A stretch of 64,000 nucleotides of DNA, from NCBI GenBank assembly GCA_033439265.1, contig JAVTVX010000026.1, forward strand, positions 7,007,001-7,071,000, read 5' to 3'. Numbering within the stretch: position 1 is the first letter of the stretch; the number at the start of each line of letters is the position of its first letter. This stretch comes from Dillenia suffruticosa (taxonomy: Eukaryota; Streptophyta; Magnoliopsida; Dilleniales; Dilleniaceae). This document shows positions 7,421 through 64,000 of this stretch, piece by piece. The notes beneath the pieces were generated by a model. That model was not told the origin of the DNA and did no database searches. It saw only the letters and a list, made by a program, of their open reading frames with translations. A program made the translations under genes and the position numbers.

Positions 7421-8651
7421 GCTTCTTATAGCATTCCGTAGCTACGAAAGACATTTGGTAGAGGTACCCCTTGTGCCCGGATACGCTTTAACCGGAGGTA
7501 TCCGCTAGATCATCATGTGTATGGGTGTCCCAGGTTGACTCTCATCGTGGAGGATGTGAGTTTATCTCTGTCTAGCATTGGCGGAACACCATACACGGTC
7601 GACTATATATATGTATCATTATTATTATTTACAGGCTAGTTGGAGTAGGCTGTGACCAATATTGGGGTAAAGAGCCATTATTTGATATTTGCATAGTTGA
7701 AAACCCCCAATGCGCCCATTCTTGGTCGAGATAGACCATTGCTGAGGTAGTTTGTTCGGTCGGCTCTACATATGTGATTTGATATATAGATGGATACATA
7801 TGTTATTTTGTTGTGTGCCTTGAGATATGTTATTCTTGAAACAGCACGTTATTTTTCACACACTTGATATTGTGTTATATACTTTGACACTCCAAGTTCA
7901 CACTTGATATTGATACCACGATGTCAATCCCCTCACTTGCTGAGTATCCTCCCATAGATACTCACCCTCACTTTCTCCCCCACAGGATTAGTCTTTGACT
8001 GAAGAAGAATTAGTGTGTTACGATGTGGAATTGATAGTACCAGGCTTGGGTATGGACATTACCATATCTTCCGTTTCGATTATTGGAGATTTTAGTTTGA
8101 TAAATGTACTCATTTAATTATTTTTGGGATGACTGTATAATTTATGTATATTTATTTGTGAAACTCTCATAGTTTATTTGCATTGAGGCGATTGTACGTA
8201 TTTGAATGTCATTTGGGAAAATTATTGTATATTATGTAAAAATTTAGGTTCGCTCGATGTGGCGGCTGCTCATGATCTAGTTGGGCATGACAGTAGAGGT
8301 TAGTGGTTATATCTGTTAGAAATTTTTATAGCCTTGCGTTGTTCTGAATGTTAGCTGTGGCATTGGTTGATTTTGGAGAGGTCAGGATGACCATTTATTT
8401 ATTTTACAGGATGAATGTTGATATACAAGTCAAATTGTACTTGGGAGACTTCCGAAATATGGGGAGTTTCTGTCCGATTTTCTGTAAAAATATAACCGGT
8501 ATCCAGGGCAACGGGCCGCTGTTCATGACCCCGGTTCGGGGTGTGACACCGACTGACAGCGTATCCATCGGAGAAAGTTTTGTGGACAATATTAGTATGT
8601 TTAGCAAATAGTTTTCGTCCGTCTGGATTGTACGTTTGTTTTGTAGTGATA

Positions 8652-11854: not shown

Positions 11855-12618
11855 AGCTATTCATGTATGCACATTTCCACCTCTCTCTTTCTTTATTTGC
11901 TCAACTCTAAACAACCACTCAAATGTTCAAAGAAAATGTGTCCAATCTTGTTGAGAATCAAGCCAAAATTGTGGGAAATAAAGATGAACAATGTGAAGTA
12001 AAAGCAAGGAGAAATCTCAAGACACAATGGAATAGTCTCAAACTATGGATCCAAACCCCACTCAAGCAAGCAAAAAATAGCCCACAATTGAAATTATTGG
12101 AGCTTAAGAGATTGATGAAACCCAAGCAAAGCCAGTTCAACAAAAGTAAGCAATGGAGCAAGCACAAGATGACCAAAAAGAAGATGAACTAGCATTGATA
12201 CCAAGCAGGCACCAAGAAATAAAAAAGTTCAAGATGGTTTATTCCAACATAACTTTTAAAAGTGCTTTCATTGTTTAAAAAAGGAGATTATTCGTTCAGA
12301 GTGGAGAGATAAATAGTTGAACAATTGTTTTCTATTCAAAATTTTAATTTCCATAAAATAAAGGCATTAAAAATCTCACATCTTGACATACTAGGGAGAT
12401 ATGTTAACCTGACAATATCTAAATTAAAATCTCCTTAACATATCAAAATTTTGAAAACTTGACATTATTTAAGAGAAGTCTTGATTCATGAGTAACTACG
12501 AGTTCATGTTTTTGTACTCCAAATCTTTAACTACCCAATCAATGGCAAGAATATCCAAAACAAATTCGTCTCTTCTAAGATCATTAGATTGACCAAGTAG
12601 TACATGGAGCCTCAATGC
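11855..12618. other. Spacer between Copia C and CACTA-2
   Basis: This 764-base stretch holds one 89-codon plus-strand frame (11923-12192), rich in Lys and Gln. I do not recognise it, and it has no domain hallmark. Base composition is the same as around it. I see no RNA gene or known repeat. The bases directly before CACTA-2 are TGC. Confidence 0.4.
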
Positions 12619-12699
12619 CACTACAAAACAAATGCCCTATCCAGACAGATGAAAACCGTTTGCAAGAACCACTGAAACTGTCGGCAGAACCTTCTTTGA

Positions 12700-13510
12700 T
12701 GAATAGGCCTTCAATTGACTATACACTAGTCGGGATAAGTCTATCCCGACGGTTTTGGTCACCATTGGACCATGTCCTAGATGTGTACTAACAATTAAAA
12801 AAATGTTTGTAAAAGTTATTATTTTTTACGTCGGTTATCATATGTATTAAGAAAAGTTACTGTATTTTATCATTGGTTAACACAAATGTTAGAAAAAACT
12901 ATTTCCTTTTACCGTCGGTTTGAAAAGCGTCAGTAAAAGTTACTGTCTTTAATCGTTGGTTACCACGTGTTAGGAAATGTTACCGTATTTTATCGTCAAT
13001 TACCACGTGTTGGGAAATATTAATGTTTTTTATCATCGATTATCATAACTATTAAGAAATATTACTACCATTTATTATTAGTTACTACAAGTGTTAGAAA
13101 ATGTTACCGTATTTTATCATCGGTTACTATAAGTGTTGAGAAATGTTACAGTCTTCTATTATCGATTAATGCAAGTGTTGGGAAAAGTTACTATTTTTTA
13201 TTATCATCTAGAAAAGCGTTAGAAAAAGTTATATGTTAGTATAAATTACTATCTTGTATCGTCGGTTACCACAAATGTTAGCAAATATTGCCGTCTTTTA
13301 TCATAGGTTATCATAATTGTTAGGAAAAGTTAGTATTTTTTATTATCGGTTACTATAAGTGTTAGGAAAGTATTGCATTTTGTTGTCAGTTATCACATGT
13401 GCTAGAAAATATTACTATATTTTATTGTCAGTTAGCACAAGTGATAGGAAAATTTACTATATTTTATTGTCGGTTACCACGTGATATCAATAGTGATAGT
13501 TTTTTAAAAT
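12700..13510. repeat. B-type subterminal repeat array of CACTA-2
   Basis: Roughly twenty imperfect units of the form TTAGGAAA(A/T)GTTAC(T/C) alternate with ATCGTCGGTTACCA over 800 bases. The GGATAAGTCTATCCCGAC palindrome-like block is at 12733-12750. It matches 4577-5188 in inverse orientation and 39230-40120 in CACTA-3. I see no gene here. Confidence 0.7.
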
Positions 13511-13871
13511 GGTGTAGATTTGAATTACTATAGGTAAATTAAAAAACTATAAAATAAAGAAATTACAAAAATAATATAAACATAATAAGGATTGTATTAA
13601 TATGCAAAATGATTGATACATTAACTCATAAATAGAATAACGAATACATATAATACCAAAAAAAGGAAAAAAAAGATTGTATATCCCACAATTGCATATC
13701 TTCTGAGATGCTCAAACCAAGAATGTTCACTTCGATCACAAAAAAATGTTATCATAAGAATTTGAAGGCACAATCCCACCATAAAAAACATATAATTTTA
13801 AAATTAGGCAAATAACTGAATAGTAGTAAGTAATTTTATGCACAATCATTCATGTCAAACTATTCATAAAA

Positions 13872-13986
13872 CCTTGCCTGTCTGCCTTTGCCTTGCCTAT
13901 TGTTTGCCGCCGAAAAGCCTCCTACTAGAGCTAGAGGAGGCTTTTCAGTGGCAAACAATAGGCAAGGCAGAGGCAGATAGGCAAGG
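13872..13986. repeat. Large hairpin in the Rep element (51-bp arms, 13-base loop)
   Basis: Left arm 13872-13922 and right arm 13936-13986 pair at 47 of 51 positions. The loop (13923-13935) reads TACTAGAGCTAGA. The stem begins CCTTGCCTGTCTGCC and its inner end is GAAAAGCCTCC. It lies 13 bases inside the left terminal repeat and upstream of the Rep coding parts. That is where CRESS viruses keep the origin hairpin and where hairpin-ended linear replicons keep terminal folds. The loop does not show the common TAGTATTAC-type nonamer. Confidence 0.85.
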
Positions 13987-14220
13987 TGTAGGTAAACCAG
14001 GAGAAAATCGGAGGCAAACAAGGTTCAAAGATAGGGAAAGGAGAAAGAAAAATAAAACAATAAATGAAAAACATAAATATGGAGAAAATACTTCAAGTAA
14101 AGCAGGAAGCTCAAAAAAAGAGTTCGACCGTCAGAGAGTTCATTTTACTTACATTGATTCATGCCGAAGCGAGATTTCTTATCGATGGAAAAACAATAAT
14201 CAATAGAATCAAGGGACTCT

Positions 14221-15290
14221 TTGAGTGCAGAGCTAGTGATAGCAACTGAAAACCATCAAGATCGGGGAACACACTATCATGTAGGGATTTGGGCAAAAAA
14301 TGCATCTAAGAATACACTTAGGAACAAACTCAGAAAGGTATTCTCGAAGTGGCCGGGAAGGGCAATTGACATCAGCTTTCACAAAGGGTGGGGATCCATT
14401 TGCTTATACATTATAAAAGAAGATAAAGAACCCTTAGTTTGGGGGGAATTCACTCTGGACCACATAAAAGTTTTTGCATATGCACATGAAACAAAGAAAG
14501 GAGCCAACCTAGAAATAGGAAACATAGCTCTACTAAAGAAACTCGAGCAGATAGAAGATTGGTACCAAGTTTATAGAGATGATATACTAGCTAACAAGGT
14601 ATTACAAAACTTACCTAGAATGAAGGAAGCCTTCGAAGACTTTAGGACTTTAAAAGATATAGAAACCAATGTATTCAGCCGAATTTTAAAGTATGTAGAG
14701 GAGATATGAGAGAAGCACTTAGTGATTGATTGGATCGCGTGTCAGCTATGCTTTAAAAGACCAATAAAGACAAAACAATTATTCATTTATGGGGAGCCCA
14801 GCACCCAGAAGACGCTCCTAATGCACTGCTTAGCCAAAGGTGATAAGAATTATTTTGCTAGTTCCGAAAGAAATGACTTTGCAGGAGCAAGTGATCATTA
14901 CGATTTGTGTGTTTTCAACAAGTTTCACGAACAAGAGCAGTAGGGCGAACAAGAAGGAATGTGGGGAGGAGCCACAATGGAGGGGAGGACCTTCGTAAAC
15001 GACCTATTAAAGGTACTCGATGGCTAGGAGTGCAGGCTCGACTCCAAGTATTCCAGGGTATTAAAAAAAAAGAGAAATGTGCCCATCATTATGATCGCGA
15101 ACAAGCTGCCACAACTAATGGAAAGGCACGCGCCTTTTAGAGCAAGGCTCTTTAGGGTAAGGTTCTCAACCCAAATAAAGAATTTAGAGGAGGAAAGAAT
15201 CATAGCAACACTGTGGGGATGCTTGGTAAGAAGAGCCACAAGGAGCCCTTATGTGCTAAAGAGAAGCAAACACCAGGAGAGGTAGCCTTG
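14221..15290 (+). pseudogene. Rep (replication initiator) coding parts of the Rep element
   Basis: The endonuclease part (about 14220-14710) contains HYHVGIW (HUH motif 2) and, about 55 residues later, YIIKEDKEP (the tyrosine motif 3), preceded by FHKGWGSIC. The helicase part (about 14720-15290) contains a YGEPST P-loop-like stretch, an acidic FHEQEQ-adjacent Walker-B-like region and VPIIMIANKLPQL, an SF3 motif-C-like stretch. Order and spacing match CRESS-type Rep, which nicks and rejoins the origin for rolling-circle replication and unwinds DNA. It is closer in style to geminivirus-related initiators than to Helitron Rep, which has a two-tyrosine motif and a Pif1 helicase. It is a fossil and not intact. 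Confidence 0.8.
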
Positions 15291-15489
15291 GCCTACAATG
15301 AGAGTAGCGCACTCGTACTACCAGTGGAAAAGTGAGAAAAAGAGAATGGGGAAATAATCTTCGCAAATAATACTACCGAGTAGGTGAACGCTATACAACA
15401 AGTGGAAAACCCCATTATGGAGAAAAGAGACAAAAAGCAATAGAAAAGATCATGAGGCAACACTAATAACCAAAGAATGGGGATTCTAT

Positions 15490-16160
15490 ATGCTAAAGCC
15501 AAAGATCATCAAGGTTAGAAAGGGGTACAACATTCTAATCTTTAAAATTTTGAAAATAAAAGAGAAACAATGGGAGGAGAATAACAATAGGGTGCACCTA
15601 TTGTACTTCGCAAGCATACCAATCAAAAAGAAAGAGAAAGAGGAAGGGAATGGGGAGAAAAAAGACCCCTTAAAAGAGCTGTTTGAGCAGCTGGAGGAAA
15701 GGGGACCGAGCATGAGGAAGAAAAGGATGAAAACACAGAAGAGGGGGAACATGAGAGCGTAACCAAACTAAAAAGCATCTTTATGGATAACAAGGAAAGA
15801 GAATGGATCAGAAAAGAAAAAAGAGCTCAAAACTCTATAATTAAGAAGGGTGGGTATAAAAAGAAGAAGTATGGAGCGTAATAAGCCTACAAAGAACCAA
15901 AAGCGAACAAGAGGATGACTACGCAACATGGCCACTCGAAATTAAAATCTATGGAAAGGAGGACCCGGAGGATGATGGAAAAAGCGAAAGGATGGTCTTT
16001 CCAGCAGTAATTAGAAACGTAAGACGAGGGGAAGAGGAAGAAAGAGGAATCAACATGTATGAAAAGGTAAAAAATATAATTGAAATTAGGGGGAGTAGTC
16101 AAGGAATAACAGCTATCAAATGCGAGATCTCGCTCTCAAGGAACAGAGAAAAGCAACCCT
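15490..16160 (+). pseudogene. Second coding tract of the Rep element, family unknown
   Basis: Same strand as Rep and downstream of it. Codon-like, lysine- and glutamate-rich coding sequence includes IIKVRKGYNILIFKIL near the start, VHLLYFASIPI shortly after, and further on YATWPLEIKIYGKE and IIEIRGSSQGITAI. Alternating hydrophobic beta-strand-like segments would fit a jelly-roll or movement-protein type product, but I see no motif that settles this. It is broken, like Rep. It fits the two-gene plan of small CRESS replicons. I do not recognise it. Confidence 0.5.
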
Positions 16161-16202
16161 AGAACATAGTGTGTTGAAAAGAGCAGAAAAAATATCATAT
16201 AA

Positions 16203-16290
16203 GAAGACGATATGCCAACAAGAAAAAAGATAAATATGAAGCAAAGGAAGACGATATGCCGACAAGAGAAGACGATATGCAGACGGGGAA
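16203..16290 (+). repeat. Three iteron-like direct repeats near the right end of the Rep element
   Basis: GAAGACGATATGC occurs exactly three times, starting at 16203, 16247 and 16268, each followed by a C/A-ACA(A/G)-like tail. Spacing is 44 and 21 bases. Repeats of this type beside the end of a Rep replicon resemble Rep-binding iterons. They could also be part of the coding tract, giving a repeated ED(D)MP-like peptide. The function is inferred. Confidence 0.6.
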
Positions 16291-16534
16291 GCATCTACGA
16301 ATTTACTTGGAAAAAAAGAAAAGCATGGAGAAGAAGAAGACTTTGACATGAATGATTGTGCATAAAATCATTTACTACTATTTAGTTATCTGCCTAGTTT
16401 TAAAATTATATATTTTTTATGGTGGGATTGTGTCTTCAAATTCTGATGATAATATTTTATTCATAAAAATCAATAATGAAATGAATATAATTACATGGTG
16501 ATATTGTAAAAAATGATTATAAATGAAAATATTA

Positions 16535-16960
16535 CTTTCTATGTAGAGTTAGGTGGTGATGATGATAGTTGGGTTCTATGTGCACTCCCAATATCTGGTA
16601 TTGGAGAAACCTAACAATACAAAGAATTTATATTATTATTCAAAAACAAATATGAAATTAGTAAGATTATACTGAAAACCAGATAAATGACATTCGTATC
16701 AGAACACCAGCAATAAGACTTGCTTTATTAATCAGATTCATCAATTCATCATGCTGTCTACTTTCAGCATGTATAGTAATATGCATAAGAACATTACTTA
16801 CCAAATTAGTAAGATTGTGATTTTGTTTCATTAATCGTTCTACTATAAAAGTCATATCTTCGTTCTTAGATCTGGTTGGATGCACAAATTTGCGTTGTGA
16901 TGAAATTGTAACCTTCCTCACTCATCTGATTGTTCCCCTTGAATCAAGCCCTTCAACTTT
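16535..16960 (-). pseudogene. CACTA gene 2 (3' exons) in CACTA-2
   Basis: A frame on the minus strand at 16921-16780 reads ERLMKQNHNLTNLVSNVLMH and then ends in NLINKASLIAGV. CACTA-3 has the same protein (38620-38763), ERLIEQNKNLTNLVSNILMH then NFINEARLIAGV, about two thirds identical over 48 residues. A second exon-like block at about 16540-16615 (ISNIPDIGSAHRTQ-like) matches 38853-38933. The last exon is separated from these by the Rep element. Position near the B end suggests the TNPA-type second product of CACTA elements, which binds subterminal repeats; that role is inferred from position only. Upstream exons are not resolved (17000-18650 shows only AT-rich traces). Confidence 0.6.
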
Positions 16961-16999
16961 AGATACGAAGTCATTTCCTTAAGACAAATTCGAACTTTC

Positions 17000-19480
17000 T
17001 ACTTGTCCTTTTTCATAATTAATAGACTTTATTTCACTGTTCATCATTTTCTATAAGAAGTAAAGTGAATCAAATCTCAATGTCTCATAAACATATCAAA
17101 TAGAATTACATGAAAGATAATCATTAATACCACAACTTCTGATACTTTCGTAGAAACTAAAATGCCATCTGATTGTGATCTACTTATAATATAAAGCATG
17201 ACTCTAGAATGTTTCAACCTATCAGATTGTATCATTTGTAATGGTAAAAATAAATCATTTTAAAGTGTTATATGGGTAAAATTGATAGCAAGTAAAATAA
17301 AATATGAATTTTTTATATCTTCTCATGTATAAGCTTAGCAAATGACTTCAATTGTAAGCAATGTGGATCAATCAATTTTGCACGACATTCTGATCTTCTT
17401 TTACTAATTTTTTAGCACAGAGAAAAAAATATTAAAAAAATAAATGGATTGCATTAAAGAGTACAGTAAGAAAAATTAGTAACTTATACCTTTCCTTTAT
17501 CACTCAACCAAAAAGTAATAAACTCCCTATACTGATTTGGATCAACCATTTTATCTTTCATTCTTTTGATATTTTTATCTATTCCAAGTGAATAATCGAA
17601 CATTTTGATTTCAAAGTATTTTTAAAACTCTTCCATTTGTCACACAAATTTTTAATAACCCATTTCTTATTGTCATCTTTGATTGATTTGAAAGTAATCT
17701 TTGACTATAATTAAAATAAAAGAAATATGTAAAGAATAAAATTAGATATATTAACTTACCACATATGTCATTGAGTAATAAAACCCAATACGTATACAAT
17801 TGCTCACATGTTGTCTTTATACTCTATTGGCATGTCATGCCAAATCCTATAATTTAATACAGCAGTCGAATGCATTCTGACTATAAAATCAAGAAATTTG
17901 TAAAAAATCGTACCATCGATTTCTATTAGTTGATTTAATTTATTTATTTTAACCATCATGCGCTTTCCTTTTGGGGGTCTATGTTTCTTGACAACTGCTC
18001 AAAATAAAAAATTAAAATGGATAATTAATTGATAGCATGTTAATATTAAATTTCAAATTAAAATGATCTATTTATTTTTAAACCTGGGGTAACATCTTGG
18101 AATGATTAGGTTTCTTCAAACTGAACTTGTTATTAGGATGGTTGTGATACTTCGTGGTCAGTTATAATACTCATCCGTCGTTTAGTTCATCCTATATTTA
18201 TAGATGAAAAATTTTTAAATCTTTCAAATATCCATTCCCAGCACAAGCCAATAGAATCCAAAACAACAGAGTGACTTTTTTTACTATAAAAAAAGTGTGA
18301 CTACCTTTTGATGAAACTTTGTAAAGTAGTTGCTCGTCTTGTAGATTTCTTGGTGTCTGAATATATGTTATAGAGTATTTCAGTGAAGCTTGAGTGAGAG
18401 CTTTGGATGGGTCTAGAAACTAAAAATATATTTGGCTAATTGTATAGATTTCAGGGGAAGAAAAGTTTTTGATTTTTTGTTAAAAACGTGCTTGATTGAG
18501 TGAGAATTTTCGATAGATTTTGAGAGATTTCAGGGGAATTAGACTAAAAATATGTTTCGTTGAGTAAGAACTTCGATGGATTTTGAGAGTTTTGAGGGGA
18601 AAAGAGCTTTCGAGGGAAGAAGAGGTTTGATAGTTTCAAGGGAATAATTTATAATATGTTTGGGTTTAGTCATTTGATCGCCTTATTTTCACAAACAAAT
18701 CTTCAAAACCCGCTTTTTTTTCACTCTTTTGTCTCTCTATAAATTTTTCTTGACTTTTTTCCATACTTTTACTCTTTACCCGCCTATTTTTTCATTACAC
18801 ACTTTTTTCATAGTTTTAATCATTACTGTTGTTCTTAACTCTTCACATTTTTCCATGCTTTTAGTCAATATCTGCCACATGTCTTTTCCATATCATCACA
18901 ATTATTGTGTGTTATTTAGGCTGTTAAAAAAATCACCACTTTTATCACGCATTATGACTATATTATTACACTTCATGCAATTTTTACAACTTGTTACCTT
19001 GTTTTATACATATATCAATACATACTATGTTAAGTTAATATCATTACATAGTTCCACTCGCACGAAACTACTATATTTAATATCAACAAAATCGATAGTC
19101 ATATTGTGCTTTTATATGAAAGAAACCTAGAGGGGTGAATAGTTTCGCCAATATTTCGTACAAGGCACCGTGGTAGACCACACAAGCACGTAGTTAGCGA
19201 TGCAAGCACATAAGGCGCTCGCGGTAGACCGTGGAAGTGTGTGGTCGGCCACGAGAGCACAAAAGGCGCTCGTGGTTGACCTCGTGAACACTCGTGGTTG
19301 ACCGCTTGTGCTTTGCACGTTAAGCACTAAGATTTTGTAGTTTAGTCGTTTGGGATTGATATTGATAGCTTAATTTAAACCTAATTTATGAAATTTTTTC
19401 TGAATTATTTTCAAATTTAGATTTCACTTAAATTTTTATAATCAAAACCTAATTTTGTCAACAGTATAAATAAGAAAAAA
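17000..19480. other. AT-rich interior of CACTA-2 between gene 2 and TNPD
   Basis: No convincing coding region. 17450-18250 has minus-strand exon-like snippets that may be upstream parts of gene 2 but no recognisable domain. 18470-18660 holds imperfect repeats of a GATTTTGAGAGTTTCAGGGG-like unit, and 18700-19110 is pyrimidine-rich on the plus strand. This would suit the upstream region of gene 2 in minus orientation. The GC-rich block at 19150-19320 is listed separately. Confidence 0.4.
19150..19325. repeat. GC-rich block with GTGGTAGACC units (CACTA-2, copy 1)
   Basis: Inside AT-rich sequence, this 170-base GC-rich block repeats GTGGTAGACCACAC, GCGGTAGACCGTG, GTGGTCGGCCACG, GTGGTTGACCTCG and GTGGTTGACCGC. 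They are separated by AAGGCGCTCG or GCACATAAGGCGC-like stretches. Each unit is nearly self-complementary. Related blocks are at 24230-24400 and 30735-30860, and a cousin is in CACTA-3 (37853-38110). Confidence 0.65.
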
Positions 19481-52354: not shown

Positions 52355-53605
52355 TTGGTATCAAAGCGTAGGGTTGGATTTATTAAATAATTTTCGGAAT
52401 ATTTTTGGGTATAAAAAATATGGGGTTGCAAAAATGGGTTTCGGATCACGGATGAGTTTCGTGAATCCGAATACACCGTAACGTTACCCATGTCACGTAG
52501 ATCTCAAATATAATTTTTCCTGAATTTTTGGAGCATGTTTAAGCCATGAAAATTGAAGTTAAAGTTTTCGGCCCTAAGGGTGCCCAAAACTTAAAAACCT
52601 AGATCTATCCGTGTAGAGGGATTGCTGATCTAAATAAATGGCATATTTGTGTTCCATGTGCATTGATCTACGTTTTGACATACATTTTGCATTGATTGGC
52701 TGCCGGAAACTGTGATTTCCGGAGAGGCCGCGGAGGGCCAAAATTTGGATAGATGATTCGCCGTGTTTAGGGCTTGAATCATTCAAAAAACGAGTTTAAA
52801 ATATTTTTGGGAAGTCCAAATATATTTTCCGACAGAAACCGTCGTAAAAAAAATAAGCCGGAAATGGGTTTTCGGAGAATAGGGTCGAAAAACCCGTTGC
52901 AGGACCCGTCGGGCGAAGAAGAACCGGCCCAGACCCGCGGGCGCGTGACACACACGCGCCAGGAGGCGCGTCCAGCAGGCGCGTGTGGTGCACGCGCCAC
53001 ACAGGTGCGTGAGGCGGATGGGGTGACGGTAGGGTCGGACCTTGACCCGGACCGACCCGCAACCCGATCCGACCGGGTAGGACAGGACCGTTGACCGGGT
53101 CGGTCGAGTCAACCCTAACCCGTTGACCGACCCAGTCTGACCCAGCTCAGGGCGGCTCAGCGCGTGAAGGCGCGTGAGCCGCGGGCCGCGACTGGGCGCG
53201 CGTGAGCCGAGCCGCGCGTGGCGCGTGGCAGCGCGTGTGACACGCGCCGCGCGTCTGGCGCGTACAGCGGGCTGCCGCCGACGCGTGGAGGTGCGTGGCG
53301 GCGCGTGGAGAGCACCGCCGGCTAGCGGCGGCGCGTGGGGAACCCCGGCGGCGCGTCAGGTCGTCCAAAATTGATTTTTTCAATTTTTTTGGGGGTCCTA
53401 TGTACATATTTGTGACTATTTGTGGGATTTTGTGCACTGAATTAAAGTCTGGATTGTGAGATGAGGTCCCGGGTTGTGGTGTATGGTGTCCGTTGACTCA
53501 TATGCTCACTTTGAGGTCAATACTCGATTCATTTTGGATTGTTAATTCGTAGGGTGCACGAAATTGTGAAAATAAGCATTATTAGTCACTAACGTCTCTT
53601 TCTTT
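52355..53605 (+). other. Copia A leader with GC-rich stretch
   Basis: Primer-site-like tract at 52355-52367, then AT-normal sequence, then 52890-53400 strongly GC-rich with many GGCGCGTG units, then a return to normal before gag. Overlapping frames on both strands (52774-53437) are composition artefacts. The counterpart in Copia B (41100-41550) is less GC-rich, as expected after cytosine methylation and deamination. Confidence 0.7.
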
Positions 53606-53609
53606 TTGT

Positions 53610-54600
53610 GTGACAGATACAATGACTGCGACAAAAAGTATCGTACTTGATCTCGTTAAGGGAGACAAGTTGAACGGTGACAATTATGAGATTTGGCACC
53701 GCAAAGTTCAATTTGTCTTCGAGGAGCAGGACCTAGCGGAGGTTCTGTTACACGAGATGACAGACCCCGGGGTGGGTGATACGCCTCAGGCGAAACTGGA
53801 TGAGGAGGCGTATCGTGCATGGAAGAAGAAGGATGGCCAAGCTAGGGTCATCCTCCTTAGCAGCATGCACGATGATCTGATTCCAGTGTACGAGCAGTAT
53901 CCTACTGCGATGTCAGTTTGGAGTGCTCTGAGAGAGCACCTTGGCTCCCGGTCAGCTCCTAAGCTGAGGATGCTGACTTATAGGTTTATCACCTATAAGA
54001 AGAGACCCGATCATACCATGAAGCAGCATTTGATGCATATGTCAAGTATGATCGCTTCTCTAAAGAACATGGGGGAGCCAATGTCTGATGAGCTTCAGGT
54101 ACTGGGAGTAATCCAGTCCTTGCCAGACTCCTGGGATGTTGTAAAGACCTACCTCACGCACACTGAGAGTATTCGTACTTTCATGGACGTGCGTAGGCAT
54201 TGTGAGCTCGAGGAGGAGCGCCAGGAGGTGGCTAGGTCGGTTTCTGGTCATACCTATGTAGCGGAGTCGAGTAAGGGCTCCAAGGGCGTCAAGCGCAAAT
54301 GGCGCAAATATGACAAGAAACCTAGCCAGGTTAAGAGGAAGCCAGCAGCGAAAACCGTTGATAAGAGAGCAGACACGTAAGAAGAAGGAGCTCGATAAGA
54401 GCAAAGTCCGATGCTACGTTTGTGGCAAATCTGGGCATTTCGCTCGCGAGTGTGGCGAGCGAAAGGTATGTCCTTCTTCTTTACATGGTATGAGTTATGT
54501 TTCATCCACTGTGATGCTTACTAACTCTTCTCCTTTGTGGATTGTAAACTCAGGAGCCACCGACCATGTAGCTCGAGATAGGAGCGCATATGTAGAGTTC
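53610..54600 (+). pseudogene. Copia A gag region
   Basis: Starts MTDTMTATKSIVLDLVKGDK and continues with LNGDNYEIWHRKV, a copia gag hallmark. The UBN2-type gag domain follows (DARVILLSS, MLTYRFITYK and LQVLGVIQSLPDSWD phrases), and near 54410-54460 the CCHC zinc knuckle CYVCGKSGHFARECGE. Gag forms the particle that packages element RNA. It is treated here as part of a retroelement, not a host gene. Confidence 0.85.
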
Positions 54601-57600
54601 CGCTGATTGAGTCCCCAAGCGAGGAGGCTGTACATGGGGAACGGGGCATTTGTGGTTGTGAAGGCGATTGGTACATGCAAGCTGATGCTGCCAAGTAACC
54701 AAGTCCTATACCTGCATCATGTGTTGTATGCTCCCGAGATTCAGCGGAATCTCATTTCTGTCTTTTGTTTAGATCGTTTAGGATACTCTGTCATTTTCAG
54801 AAATTTGAGTGTTTCTGTCATTTACGATAACTCTGTTTTATATACTGGTTTAGTCCATGATGGACTTTATGCATTGGATTTGGTTTCCTTTAATAAAATT
54901 TCTGATTTGTCTTCTATTGCGTATACATCTGATAGCGTAGTTGATGATGTTTGTATTTGGCATAGTAGATTTGGCCACATAGGGCAAGAGAGAATGAACC
55001 GGTTAGCTACGAGTGGCTTGTTGGGCCCGCTAACCCGGATCGAGTTGCCCTTATGTGAGTTTTGCCTAGCAGGCAAAGCAACGAGGAAACCATTTGGAAA
55101 AGCAATGAGGGCTGGGACCCCATTGCAATTGATCCACTCCGATATTTGTGGACCTATGAATGTGAGAGCCCGAAACGGAGCCACATATTTCATTACGTTC
55201 ATAGATGATTGCACGCGTTTCGGTTACGTCTACCTAATCTCGCACAAGTCTGAGGCATTAGATTGCTTCAGGAGGTTTATCAGCGAGGTAGAAAACCAGT
55301 TAGACTTGAGAATTAAAACTCTCAGAACCGATAAAGGACGCGAGTACTTGTCTGAGGAGTTTAAAGAGCTCTGTTTCAAGAAGGGCATTACGAGACAGTT
55401 GACTATTCCTGCTACTCCCCAGCAGAACGGGGTAGCTGAGAGAAGGAATAGGACTTTGTTGGAGATGGTAAGATCGATGATGGCGCAGGCCAATTTGGCT
55501 ATCTCCCATTGGGGAGACGCATTGTTGACTGCCGCCTACGTTCTTAACCGTGTTCCAACCAAGTCCGTAGTCAGTACCCCATACGAGCTTTGGACAGGGA
55601 GGCAGCCTGACCTTAGCCATTTGAGACCATGGGGTTGTGCCGCATACGTTCACGATTCCTCGCACCCACACGGCAAGTTAGGCCCACGAGGAAAGAAATG
55701 TATCTTTGTAAGGTACTCTGAACATTCTAAGGGACATGTGTTCCTAGGTGAACGTACGGATGGCACGGTCTCCGAGATCGAATCTCGTAATGCTACGTTC
55801 CTAGAAAATGATTTCCCTAAGAGAGGCGAAATCGACCAGGATTTCACCTTCTATGAGATGGGTGAGCCTGACGGCCCAATTAAGCCCAGGGGTGGGACCC
55901 AAGAGCCTGAAAAGGATCTTGTTCCTAGTGGGAGTAACCCATCTCGAGGTGAGGAGGCTCCTCCTCCTCGTAGGAGTAGTCGGGGATATATACCCCGACG
56001 TCATTTTCCGATAGAGGATGAGATCCTCATCGTGACTCCTGAGGATGATGAAGAACCTCAAACCTTTGAGAAGGCTCTCGAGAGTCCTATGAAGGACCAA
56101 TGGCTAGAGGCCATGAAAGAGGAGATGGAATCAATGAGGGTCAACGGGGTCTGGGACTTAGTTGACCTACCTGAGGATAGAAGGGCCATAGGGAACAAGT
56201 GGGTTCTCAAAATCAAAAGAAAGGTCGACGGATCGGTAAAAAGATACAAAGCCCGTCTAGTAGCCAAGGGTTACACACAGACAAAGGGCATTGATTACGA
56301 GGAGACTTTCTCCCCCGTAGTCAAATTTACATCGATCCGTCTACTCTTGGCGATTGTCGCAAGCATGGATCTAGAGTTGGATCAGATGGATGTAAAGACC
56401 ACTTTCCTTAATGGAAATCTGGATGAGGAGATCTACATGGAGCAGCCCTCTGGGTTCGTTCCAGTAGGTCATGAGGACAAGGTCTGTCGACTTCGGAAGT
56501 CGATATATGGCCTAAAGCAATCATCCAGGCAGTAGTACCTAAGATTCCACGAGGAGGTGATATCTTATGGTTTTACAATGATCGAGGAGGATCATTGTGT
56601 TTACTTGATACGATCTGATAACTCTTTTGTGATCTTGTCCCTGTATGTGGACGATATACTGTTGGCTGGGAACAACATTCAGTATCTGATGACGATCAAG
56701 GTTTGGTTGTCATTGCGCTTCGACATGATCGACATGGGTGAAGCTGAGTTCATCCTTGGAGTTAAGATCCAGAGAGATCGATCGAGAAGAATGTTGGCTC
56801 TTTCACAAGAGACCTACATTAAGAAAATTCTCGAGCGCTTTGGGATGAGTGATTGTAATCCCATTGACACTCCAATCGCCAAGTGTGATGGTCTGAGTCT
56901 TGAGATGTGCCCAAAAACTCAGGAAAATATAAGGGAGATGCGTAAAATCCCTTATTCCAGCGCAGTGGGAAGTCTGATATATGCGATGTTGTGTACATGA
57001 CCAAACATATATTACGCAGTCGGTCTGGTGAGTAGATATCAATCAAATCCTAGAAGGGGTCACTGGAGAGCAGTGAAAAGGATTTTTAGATATCTCAAGG
57101 GAACTGCGAGCTACTCCTTGTGTTATGGGAGAGGGGATTTGCGCCTCATAGGATATTAAGACGCCGACTGGGGCGGTGATCTGGATAAGCGCAAATCGAT
57201 ATCAGGTTTTACATTCTTGCTCAATGGCGGTGCCATTTCTTGGAGCAGCAAGAAGCAGACCTGTGTAGCTTTATCTACGATGGAGGCTGAGTTCGTGACT
57301 TGCTCAGTAGCAGTTCAGGAGAGTGTTTGGCTCCGGAGACTATTAGATGACTTAGGGGTTGTAGCTGATAGTGGGAGGCCAGTGATGATTTACTGTGATA
57401 ATCAGGCTGCTATCGCCTATACTCGAGACCCTAAGTATCATAGTAGGACCAAACATATAGACACCAGATATAATTTTGTTAGAGACATCATCGAGAAGGG
57501 TGAAGTGACCGTCAAGTATATCTCGACACATTGCATGGTGGCTGACCCCTTCACCAAACCCATCACTAGAGACTCATTTATAGCACATAGAAAGTCATTG

Positions 57601-57618
57601 GGTTTGGGAATATTTTGA
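54500..57618 (+). pseudogene. Copia A pol region (protease, integrase, reverse transcriptase, RNase H)
   Basis: Parts in order: protease-side phrase WIVNSGATDHVARD (54540-54580); GAG-pre-integrase with WHSRFGHIGQERMNRL (about 54960); integrase core with HSDICGPM, FIDDCTRFGYVY and TPQQNGVAERRNRTLLEMVR (55130-55460); reverse transcriptase with WVLKIKRKVDG, KARLVAKGYTQ and LYVDDILLAG (56200-56670); and RNase H with VALSTMEAEF, YCDNQAAIAY and KHIDTRYNFVRD (57270-57490), ending near SLGLGIF (57618). This order, with integrase before reverse transcriptase, defines Ty1/copia. A handful of breaks is visible. Confidence 0.9.
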
Positions 57619-61111: not shown

Positions 61112-64000
61112 TCAAACCTCATAAAGCATTCCTACCTCAATACGCTGCGGCAGCGGAATACCTAAAGCAGGCAATGCCGATCTGCAGTTATTGTGTAGAA
61201 CTTCATAAAAAGCAAGCATACTTCTGTCAAACCAGCTGCTGTTCTTGCCAATATAAAATCTTGTCTTCCCTCGAATGTGAACTACACCTACAAGCTTGGC
61301 CTCTTCCAAATCAGAAACCTCTTCCTCAACTTCTGAAGGAACCAACGATGTACCACAACTTTTGCTCAGTATATGAGCCTTCAAGCGATCTGTGACCTGC
61401 CTCACAAAGTCATCCCCCTCAAGATTAAGAGAATCTGCATAGCCATACTGAATCACACATCCGTATGCTCCCTTAAGGTCCATTTTGTGGACAACAACAC
61501 GCTCATGTGAAGCTACTTTAGGAACCAACAAGTACCGCAGGGAAGTAAATATTGTAATCTTATGAAGAGAATTCATGTTCTTTATGTAATGCCCCAAAAT
61601 TGGTGTCAGCCCATCTTGAATATTAGTGTAAAAGAAACACAATCCTGGTACCCTCTGAACAGCTGGGTCAGCTAATAGCACCTTCAGTCTCTCTAGGTTA
61701 ATCTTGTGTGTTAATTCGTACTCAACTTTCCTCTGCCTCCCATAGAACCAGCCAAACATGATAAAAGCAAGTATAAATGAAATGGCAAAAGGAATCCAAC
61801 CACCCTGAAGAAGTTTAGTGCAGACAGCACTAACATATACCCCTTCCATGGTGAAAAATACGATTAAGTACAGGAAAGCCAGCACAAGAGGAGTTCGCCA
61901 TATCATTATCATGACCAGTGTCAGCAGTACGGTGGTAATGAGCATAACCAAACTGATAACAACACCTGCAAACATGGTTCTTTCCATAAGAAAACAACAA
62001 CAACAAACAGACTAAGATAAACTGAGGAGTGCAATCTTATGAGAAAAGCACAGTGCAGCATCATCAGAGAACAACAATTGAGTCAACTGAGGAGTGCAAT
62101 CTTATGCATGATAGTATTAAAACCTAGGAAGTCTGAAGATTCCAAAGTGGAAGCCATATCCATATCATATACTTGCTGCATATTTGTCAAATACTACACA
62201 TGGAGTATCCATTATCTTTTTAATACCATGTACTTCAGAGGAACTTAATGGATACTTCACATGAACTTTTTAGCAACATTAACATTCACTAACATGTATA
62301 TTTTATTTATGTATTAATTGACTGGACAAAACATAAATAGAGAAATCACAATTGTTATACCTACTAGTTGTTTATCATTAACACCCCTTTTAAATATTTA
62401 AATTACTAATTTGCTTAACTTTACTTGTTTAAAATTAAAAGTATATGATAACAGTAAAACTTATTCACTATAAATATATTAATATTTTTGTTTTAATCAT
62501 GTAATCTCGTATTCTAGTTTTTGAAAATTCACTATATTTTTGTATCGCTATCATGCTTATTTGTTACTAGGTTTAAGATCTTTCAAGTTAAAAAAGAAAA
62601 ATACTTTCTGCATAAAATATTATTGATGAAGACTAAAATTTTCAGAAATTTGTCATACTCCGTACTTCTGAAATTAAAACTATTCTCCTTTAAATAGCAG
62701 GATGAAAATTTTCCATACCAAATGCATTTCCAATATCTTGTCCATCTCCAAAAATAAGTATGACAGCAACACAGAGAACCATAAGAATGTAGTTGACGTC
62801 GGGGGAGTAAACTTCGCCTTCTTTGGTGGAAGAGGTGTGCACAACCTTTACCCTAGGAAAATAATCCAGAGCTACAGATTGCTTGATGATAGAAAAGGTG
62901 GCAGATACCAGTGATTGACTCGCTACAATTGCTGCTAACGTGGATATGACAAAGACAGGCCAATATATCGATTTTGGTATGAACTTGTAAAACCCATCAT
63001 GATGATCATGGGGATGCTTAATCAGATATGCTGTCTGGCCAGCATATGTCAGAACCAATGATGGATATATGGTGAATAAGAACGCAATCTGTCAAAGTAA
63101 TAGATCTTAGAAGCAGCTTTATAAAACTAGAAATCCAAAAAATAAAAAATAAAAAAATAAAAGTGAAAAATAAAATTTCAAAAGTAAAATTTACCTGAAT
63201 GGAACTCTTATTGAAATGACCAAGGTCTGCAAACAATGCTTCTGAGCCTGAAATTGTAAGATGAAAACAAAGATAAACCACTGGATTTACTTTTTTGTTT
63301 AATGTTATAGACCAGACCAAAAAAGGAAAAGAAAAGAAAAGAAAAGTATTTTATGAAAGAAATTTAGGCTGTGGCTTGTTTCCACAATCTTGTTTCAGCA
63401 TATACTTTTCCCCTGATTATAACAAATTTTGGGCATTGTAGTACTATCAGCATGCTTATCCGTCTTAAGGTAGAATATAAGCAAGAGGCAAAGCATCTTT
63501 TGCAGCAAAAAAAAGGTAGGATACAAGTATATTCTCCAACAAAATCAGTAAAAGAACTGATATCTCTTAAAAAGGAATCTCATCTTGGACTGATAATAAT
63601 GATCTAGCAGAGCTAATGTGCACATACATTTCCAAGTTGTCTTTCTACATAAAGATGGAATAGTAATGACCTTCTAGAACTCGATTCTGATACAAGGAAA
63701 AGAATGCAAAAATATAAATCAAAGACCTACACTTCTTCTTAGATGACATGCTTGAGAACACAAGCTTGTGGTTCTCTCAATGCTAATGAACAGGATAAAT
63801 GAAGAAGCATGTCAATTTCATACATTCTAAAAGTTACAGGGCTCAATTGTGAATCTCACCTGTGATGCAGAGGACAGTTCCACTGAGCAGTAGCCAGCCT
63901 TCCTTTCCATTTCTGAGAAAGAAAGTTAAGATGTAATGAGGAGATACAGCCCTAAATATAGACGGGTAATGATGCACGATACTATAGATTCCAACAAGTG
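61112..64000 (-). CDS. HAK/KUP/KT potassium transporter, C-terminal part (5' end beyond the window)
   Basis: Four exons on the minus strand: 64000-63860 (continues off the edge), 63247-63195, 63088-62719 and 61965-61112. All junctions are GT-AG and in phase, giving about 471 residues to the stop. Family signatures: LVGIYSIVHHYPSIFRAVSP, NGKEGWLLLSGTVLCITG, GSEALFADLGHF, YPSLVLTYAGQTAYL, SIYWPVFVISTLAAIVASQS, FPRVKVVHTS and GQDIGNAFG. Several hydrophobic membrane helices follow, then a soluble C-terminal region from about YGRQRKVEYE. The family moves K+ (with H+) across the plasma or vacuolar membrane and usually has 750-800 residues and 10-14 helices, so roughly the first 300 residues are missing here. 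The C-terminus ends GMLYEV. I cannot place it safely in a cluster. It is intact as far as it can be seen. Confidence 0.95.
61966..62718 (-). other. Intron of the potassium transporter (753 bp)
   Basis: Donor GTATGG follows AATGCATTTG (62718) and acceptor TTTGCAG precedes GTGTTGTTATC (61966). The junction splits a glycine codon to give IGNAFG-VVISLV. A/T-rich; no embedded element is recognised. Confidence 0.85.
63248..63859 (-). other. Intron of the potassium transporter (612 bp)
   Basis: Donor GTGAGATTC (63859) follows the CATCACAG exon end and acceptor AATTTCAG precedes GCTCAGAAGC. It joins LCIT-G-SEALF. Frames inside it (for example 63371-63607 on the plus strand) are chance. The short intron 63089-63194 (106 bp, donor GTAAAT, acceptor TTGACAG) separates the next two exons. 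Confidence 0.85.

Follow-up and report, generated by a model that had tools for sequence, protein, structure and literature searches.

A putative ssDNA-virus-like fossil with false terminal inverted repeats in a CACTA transposon of Dillenia suffruticosa

Do the long inverted repeats that enclose a decayed Rep-like sequence in the genome of Dillenia suffruticosa belong to that sequence, as the ends of a mobile element would, or were they acquired in some other way? The locus lies in a 64,000-nucleotide stretch of contig JAVTVX010000026.1 (positions 7,007,001 to 7,071,000 of the forward strand), referred to here as the window. An earlier note, made from the letters of the window alone, had described a Rep element that carried long terminal inverted repeats (TIRs) of its own inside a CACTA transposon. 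The features on which our answer draws are collected in Table 1.

Table 1. Features of the insert and of the surrounding CACTA transposon (positions in the window; C1 is the contig that carries the second Rep copy).
Feature	Position	Strand	Remarks
5' terminus of host CACTA	12619..12635	+	CACTACAAAACAAATGC; shared end of dispersed copies
Subterminal tandem repeats of about 42 bp, host CACTA	12824..13480	+	
Left arm	13745..13859	+	Ordinary CACTA sequence, found in 18/18 other copies fetched
Target sequence, first copy	13861..13871	+	TATTCATAAAA; single copy in empty sites
Hairpin, 53-nt arms (92%)	13871..13987	+	Adjoins left junction
N-terminal Rep-like piece	14064..14249	+	81% amino acid identity to C1 copy; motif I frame ambiguous
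Rep-like piece, HUH motif HYHV and YxxK motif YIIK	14200..14709	+	
Rep-like SF3 helicase piece	14710..14943	+	Damaged Walker A GEPSTQKT, damaged Walker B-like stretch
Rep-like SF3 helicase piece	15028..15285	+	Motif C-like PIIMIAN; no other genome copy found
Second coding tract, part 1	15388..15762	+	124 aa, of which 31% are Lys or Glu
Second coding tract, part 2	15860..16162	+	100 aa, of which 25% are Lys or Glu
Three iteron-like direct repeats of GAAGACGATATGCCGACAAG	16203..16287	+	Similar copies directly upstream of C1 hairpin
Right arm	16342..16456	-	Host bases 13745-13859 duplicated in inverse; missing from empty sites
Target sequence, second copy	16458..16468	+	TATTCATAAAA

The inverted repeats themselves are present much as first described, at 114 bp and about 92% alike: after trimming we measured 115 nt with nine differences (92.2%), and before it 126 nt at 90% (13740-13865 and 16336-16461). 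A search of the whole 596-Mb genome with the arm gave at least 20 matches, two of them inside the window, and all 18 loci outside it were fetched, 10 kb each, with about 5 kb on either side. Every one of the 18 proved to be CACTA-transposon sequence carrying an arm, and in none did the left-arm query find a full-length inverted partner within the 10 kb fetched. Among these copies, L017 has an extra 52-bp left-arm match in the same orientation, L029 matched over 51 bp in the left-arm search, yet aligns over 116 columns in another comparison, and L021, which is empty, gave a weak inverted match of 29 bp (E 0.006) to the right-arm query.

In 17 of the 18 other copies, the DNA to the left of 13871 is continuous with the DNA to the right of about 16458, and the joined window flanks align to these sites with no need of the insert; in L028 the alignment shows a gap of some 20 bases there, and some other copies are short of one to a few bases. 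Since other copies run uninterrupted across the insertion site, the left arm is host DNA and not an end of an inserted element. The right arm is 92% identical to this locus and no more than 80% identical to each of the 18 others (over at least 100 bp), so it is most likely a backward copy of the left arm made from this locus. The insert is flanked by a target duplication of 10-11 bp, the TATTCATAAAA sequence, and a duplication of this length is not specific to transposases. The proposal of a Rep element bounded by its own TIRs is therefore not supported: the repeat occurs in at least 18 other CACTA copies that carry no insert at the site, one of the two outcomes that the earlier note had named as refuting it.

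A target duplication of 10-11 bp is also a product of Mutator-type transposases, and together with long inverted arms it gives the locus a formal likeness to a Mutator-like element (MULE), in this case one that has long TIRs, duplicated 11 bp of its target and would have taken up a viral Rep. We give this explanation almost no chance. The left arm is situated beyond the duplicated target and occupies the same place in all 18 of the other CACTA copies fetched, so the arms are not the two ends of the insert, and genome searches found, among the matches listed, no second copy with both ends.

The enclosing element is a CACTA transposon, as its CACTACAAAACAAATGC terminus and its subterminal repeats are common to dispersed copies. 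Fifteen of the 18 other copies entered the comparison of termini, three being left out; all 15 could be aligned to the end at 12619, beyond which the DNA differs among copies, and exact CACTA stands at the terminus in 10 of them. The first CACTA pattern used, CACTACWASAAAA, had no match in the window, and the terminus was then located from the copies themselves. To the right of the insert, no opposite CACTA terminus was found at up to three mismatches. Elsewhere in the window there is a second CACTA-like terminus (8632-8648, minus strand, two mismatches), a copia-type retrotransposon with long open pieces (53586-57618, plus strand; 54607-56532 matches Pfam RVT_2, rve and gag_pre-integrs), and part of a potassium transporter gene (61112-62011, minus strand; Pfam K_trans, E 1.4e-18, and K_trans_C, E 4.5e-17).

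What the earlier note took for HUH endonuclease and SF3 helicase parts can be recognized as an ordered series of Rep-like motifs on the plus strand, spread over several frames, beginning with a motif-I-like stretch and continuing with HYHV at 14272, YIIK at 14407, GEPSTQKT at 14791, and PIIMIAN at 15082. The endonuclease motifs (motif I, HUH, and YxxK) stand in order, with the frame of motif I ambiguous; of the SF3 motifs, Walker A is present in a loosened form only, the Walker B-like stretch is damaged, and a motif C-like stretch is present. The chain was found at a single place on the two strands of the window, in two variants that differ in motif I only, and occurred neither in 456,000 background strand-bases (23 loci) nor in any of 3,000 versions of the insert shuffled by dinucleotides; for this test, Walker A was loosened after the window had been seen. 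The putative identity of the pieces as a CRESS-type Rep rests on this motif order, and in these terms the description of a CRESS-type Rep fossil inside a CACTA transposon is supported.

The Rep received no confirmation from profile and structure searches. The best Rep-related match, to Pfam REP_ORF2-G2P, stayed under the cut-off (E 0.098 with the whole piece and 0.024 with a trimmed one), and nothing among the curated Rep profiles rose above cut-off, the pieces being short and decayed. The Gemini_AL1 domain had no match in the insert pieces, and a genome search with PF02407 and PF00799 did not find the window and gave sub-threshold matches only, elsewhere. Piece 14710-14943 had no match in Pfam or PHROG; the Walker A piece had weak matches to an ATP-binding protein family (E 0.042) and to VCP-like ATPases (E 0.3). 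The leader and hairpin, read in frame 13820, weakly matched PHROG 2828, "serine-threonine kinase" (E 0.0035), and a further weak match was to an interferon-inducible protein (E 0.8). The structure model of the Rep piece had a pLDDT of 43, and Foldseek returned nothing at E 0.001 against viral and PDB structures. Piece 14200-14706 had no match among plasmids and phages. Piece 14064-14246 drew 70 Rhizobium records from plasmids (best E 0.2); these were set aside, and the ten listed fall within porin genes. In viral contigs, two scans for close viral relatives gave no match, two further scans gave 4 and 52 pattern matches, none of which was confirmed by tblastn, and in another scan neither of the two stretches examined, out of 19, was CRESS-like.

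Might the coding pieces then be a decayed host gene, or another mobile gene, with chance motifs? The lack of any significant family, PDB or Foldseek match to Rep and the loosening of Walker A would both fit such an origin. The absence of the motif chain from the shuffles and the background, together with an origin-like hairpin core and iteron-like repeats that recur at a second locus, makes it quite improbable.

That second locus was the only other Rep locus found in genome searches with protein and DNA pieces; it lies on contig C1 (4853454-4853804) and shares 80% DNA identity with the window. The fragment (L030:5000-5416, minus strand) sits within the 5' LTR of a copia-type element, and the paired LTR, 5 kb away, is without Rep DNA, the flanking LTR parts being separated there by 36 bp. 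It has no match to the arms. The sole other Rep copy found thus ends at unrelated points and in an unrelated repeat, which again speaks against ends proper to the Rep element and is the second outcome that the note had named as refuting its proposal. Matches on another contig (C30) overlapped each other and were taken by eye as purine-rich low complexity.

The two Rep copies can also be compared base by base. Over 147 aligned bases of the HUH piece, changes number 7, 4, and 12 at codon positions 1, 2, and 3. In the 79 bases upstream of this piece, they fall as 4, 4, and 0 in frame 13820, which equals 4, 0, and 4 in frame 14064, and frame 14064 also gives the higher protein identity between the copies (81%). 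The true N-terminal frame of Rep is probably 14064, the numbers being small, and chance may account for the FTY stretch of frame 13820. As both the codon-position changes and the identity favor frame 14064, the assignment of motif I is weakened and the rest is unaffected.

The hairpin reported in the earlier note is present, and as DNA it folds at -60.1 kcal/mol, where shuffles average -17.7 (z -16.8). Its core (13909-13943) is common to the window and C1 copies; the long 53-nt stem occurs in the window only and ends at the host junction. The hairpin of the C1 copy has a short, weak stem, and 7 of 200 shuffles folded equally well. We take the left arm of the window hairpin to be a copy of the leader that arose by fold-back during capture; the long stem could instead be native to the virus, and the divergence figures given below do not discriminate. 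No conserved nonanucleotide was found in the insert or the C1 copy with any of the patterns tried, TAATATTAC included, and a search of Rfam over 12500-18000 gave no match.

The order of sequences around the hairpin differs between the two copies. The DNA upstream of the C1 hairpin matches the window copy at its right end (16247-16266), where none of 1,000 base shuffles did as well, and does not match it at the left end, where 180 of 1,000 did. The DNA downstream of the C1 core matches the left end (0 of 1,000) and not the right (994 of 1,000), so that the origin-proximal 20-bp repeat stands at opposite ends in the two Rep copies. From the 20-bp repeat match and the shared hairpin core, the two copies would seem to be one circle opened differently, and circularity of the source is well indicated rather than proved, no complete copy that spans the junction having been seen. 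A linear, hairpin-ended replicon, as had been suggested, is not supported, and the arrangement instead indicates a circular ancestor.

The same comparison bears on two further explanations. A Rep-carrying replicative transposon moving within the genome, whether Helitron-like or a domesticated virus, is favored by the Rep-like motifs and the terminal hairpin, and there are precedents in a Rep-bearing transposon of truffle (PMC3198968) and in Helitron-like features described from yam and tobacco elements (PMC5014472). Only two Rep loci were found, however, which are 80% alike, cut differently and have unrelated ends, and the helicase piece 15028-15282 was found here only, as was part 1 of the second coding tract, which makes this origin very improbable. 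Alternatively, the Rep of the virus may have nicked both the host and its own origin and joined the two. The viral part of the insert does start at an origin-like hairpin and end near iteron-like repeats; the C1 copy, too, has one of its ends just upstream of its hairpin. Rolling-circle replication alone can give linear DNA with its ends at the origin, though, the inverted fillers suit repair synthesis, and the two host sites (the interior of a CACTA element and a copia LTR) are unlike by eye; we consider Rep-mediated integration unlikely.

The second coding tract lies on the same strand as the Rep-like pieces, as the earlier note had seen. Library and structure searches gave it no name, whether as a capsid protein or otherwise: it weakly matched PHROG 29873, of unknown function (E 0.035), the structure model of part 1 had a pLDDT of 61.8, and Foldseek found nothing at E 0.001 among viral structures. 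Part 1 was not found elsewhere in the genome, and the DNA of 15880-16341 had one 45-bp match elsewhere. A stretch of 56 bp on contig C20 (233030-233085; L039:4990-5045) is 87.5% identical to 15869-15924 of the second tract and stands isolated within AT-rich DNA; it may be a small filler derived from this replicon.

We hold it to be probable that the insert is an endogenous fossil of ssDNA-virus-like DNA, which entered the CACTA transposon a single time through the repair of a break, on the strength of the uninterrupted host site, the duplicated target of 10-11 bp, the inverted extra copy of the flank, the origin-proximal repeat, and the broken frames. The source would have been a circular Rep-encoding ssDNA virus, or a virus-like plasmid, of presumably about 2.4 kb, opened near its origin and captured a single time in linear form at a staggered double-strand break. 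A viral 3' end may have paired with the flank on the left side of the break, been extended backwards along 115 nt of it, and then been joined to the right break end; at the left, the viral end would have folded back on its origin hairpin and been extended over 53 nt of the leader. The cell's end-joining machinery is the presumed agent, and the captured copy, which we read as a putative passive fossil, would have mutated since over a few million years. Against capture by break repair, it can be said that Rep is identified by motifs, of which Walker A and B are damaged and motif I is unsettled in its frame, and that the inverted tracts (115 and 53 bp) exceed most of those described in a yeast study (about 5-34 bp; PMC11724301).

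The two inverted duplications serve as internal clocks that date the capture. The K2P divergence of the trimmed host arms (0.084; 9 of 115 sites) is close to that of the trimmed hairpin arms (0.082; 4 of 53), and the untrimmed values are less equal (0.103 over 126 bp and 0.121 over 55 bp). Substitution rates in plants are given as 6.5e-9 and 1.5e-8 per site and year. From the four K2P values, these rates would place the capture roughly 2.7 to 9.3 million years ago, with a large error, as there are only nine and four differences.

Endogenous geminivirus-like DNA is well described from plant nuclear genomes (PMC7758297, PMC5014472, and PMC8626973), and the elements reported there (EGV1 and EGV2 of yam, EGE of macadamia, and those of an angiosperm survey) resemble the present insert in being decayed DNA of Rep-bearing ssDNA viruses. 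The locus is best read as one of this known kind, with false TIRs. In contrast to the geminivirus-like elements, it has no Gemini_AL1 match and no TAATATTAC in either the insert or the C1 copy, and both of its coding tracts lie on one strand. Yam EGV1, moreover, is described in tandem (PMC5014472), whereas here we see a single insertion with inverted fillers. The source lineage is possibly undescribed and highly diverged. More specifically, and tentatively, at somewhat less than even odds, it may represent an undescribed lineage of plant-associated circular replicons of about 2.4 kb, with a Rep outside Gemini_AL1 and Viral_Rep, a hairpin without the usual nonanucleotide, adjoining 20-bp iteron-like repeats, and Rep and a lysine/glutamate-rich gene on one strand. 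In its two copies, cut at different points, we have the record of a replicon that none of the libraries searched recognizes.

A Rep remnant between inverted repeats also recalls the geminivirus-like transposon of Tuber melanosporum. In that family there are 42 genes or remnants of Rep, which with one exception form a single clade and are more than 95% alike; its TIRs measure 37 bp, it has transposase ORFs, and a target duplication is not obvious (PMC3198968). The present locus differs in being one copy whose arms are host DNA. Closer parallels for the arms are the fold-back and templated insertions that arise at double-strand breaks, which share with our locus the inverted copy of a flank and the inversion inside captured ssDNA (PMC11724301 and PMC10923293). 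Compared with the yeast fold-backs, mostly of 5-34 bp (PMC11724301), the tracts of 115 and 53 bp are long, and they flank 2.4 kb of captured DNA. The locus illustrates how a passive virus fossil can receive apparent TIRs and a duplicated target from the repair of a break, which may mislead transposon annotation. At yeast breaks, fold-back inversions have been described that also occur inside captured ssDNA (PMC11724301), and at T-DNA junctions of Arabidopsis there are flank-templated fillers, some of them reverse-complement (PMC10923293); the locus can be read as showing both kinds of filler, at the two junctions of one captured molecule, by steps that are presumed.
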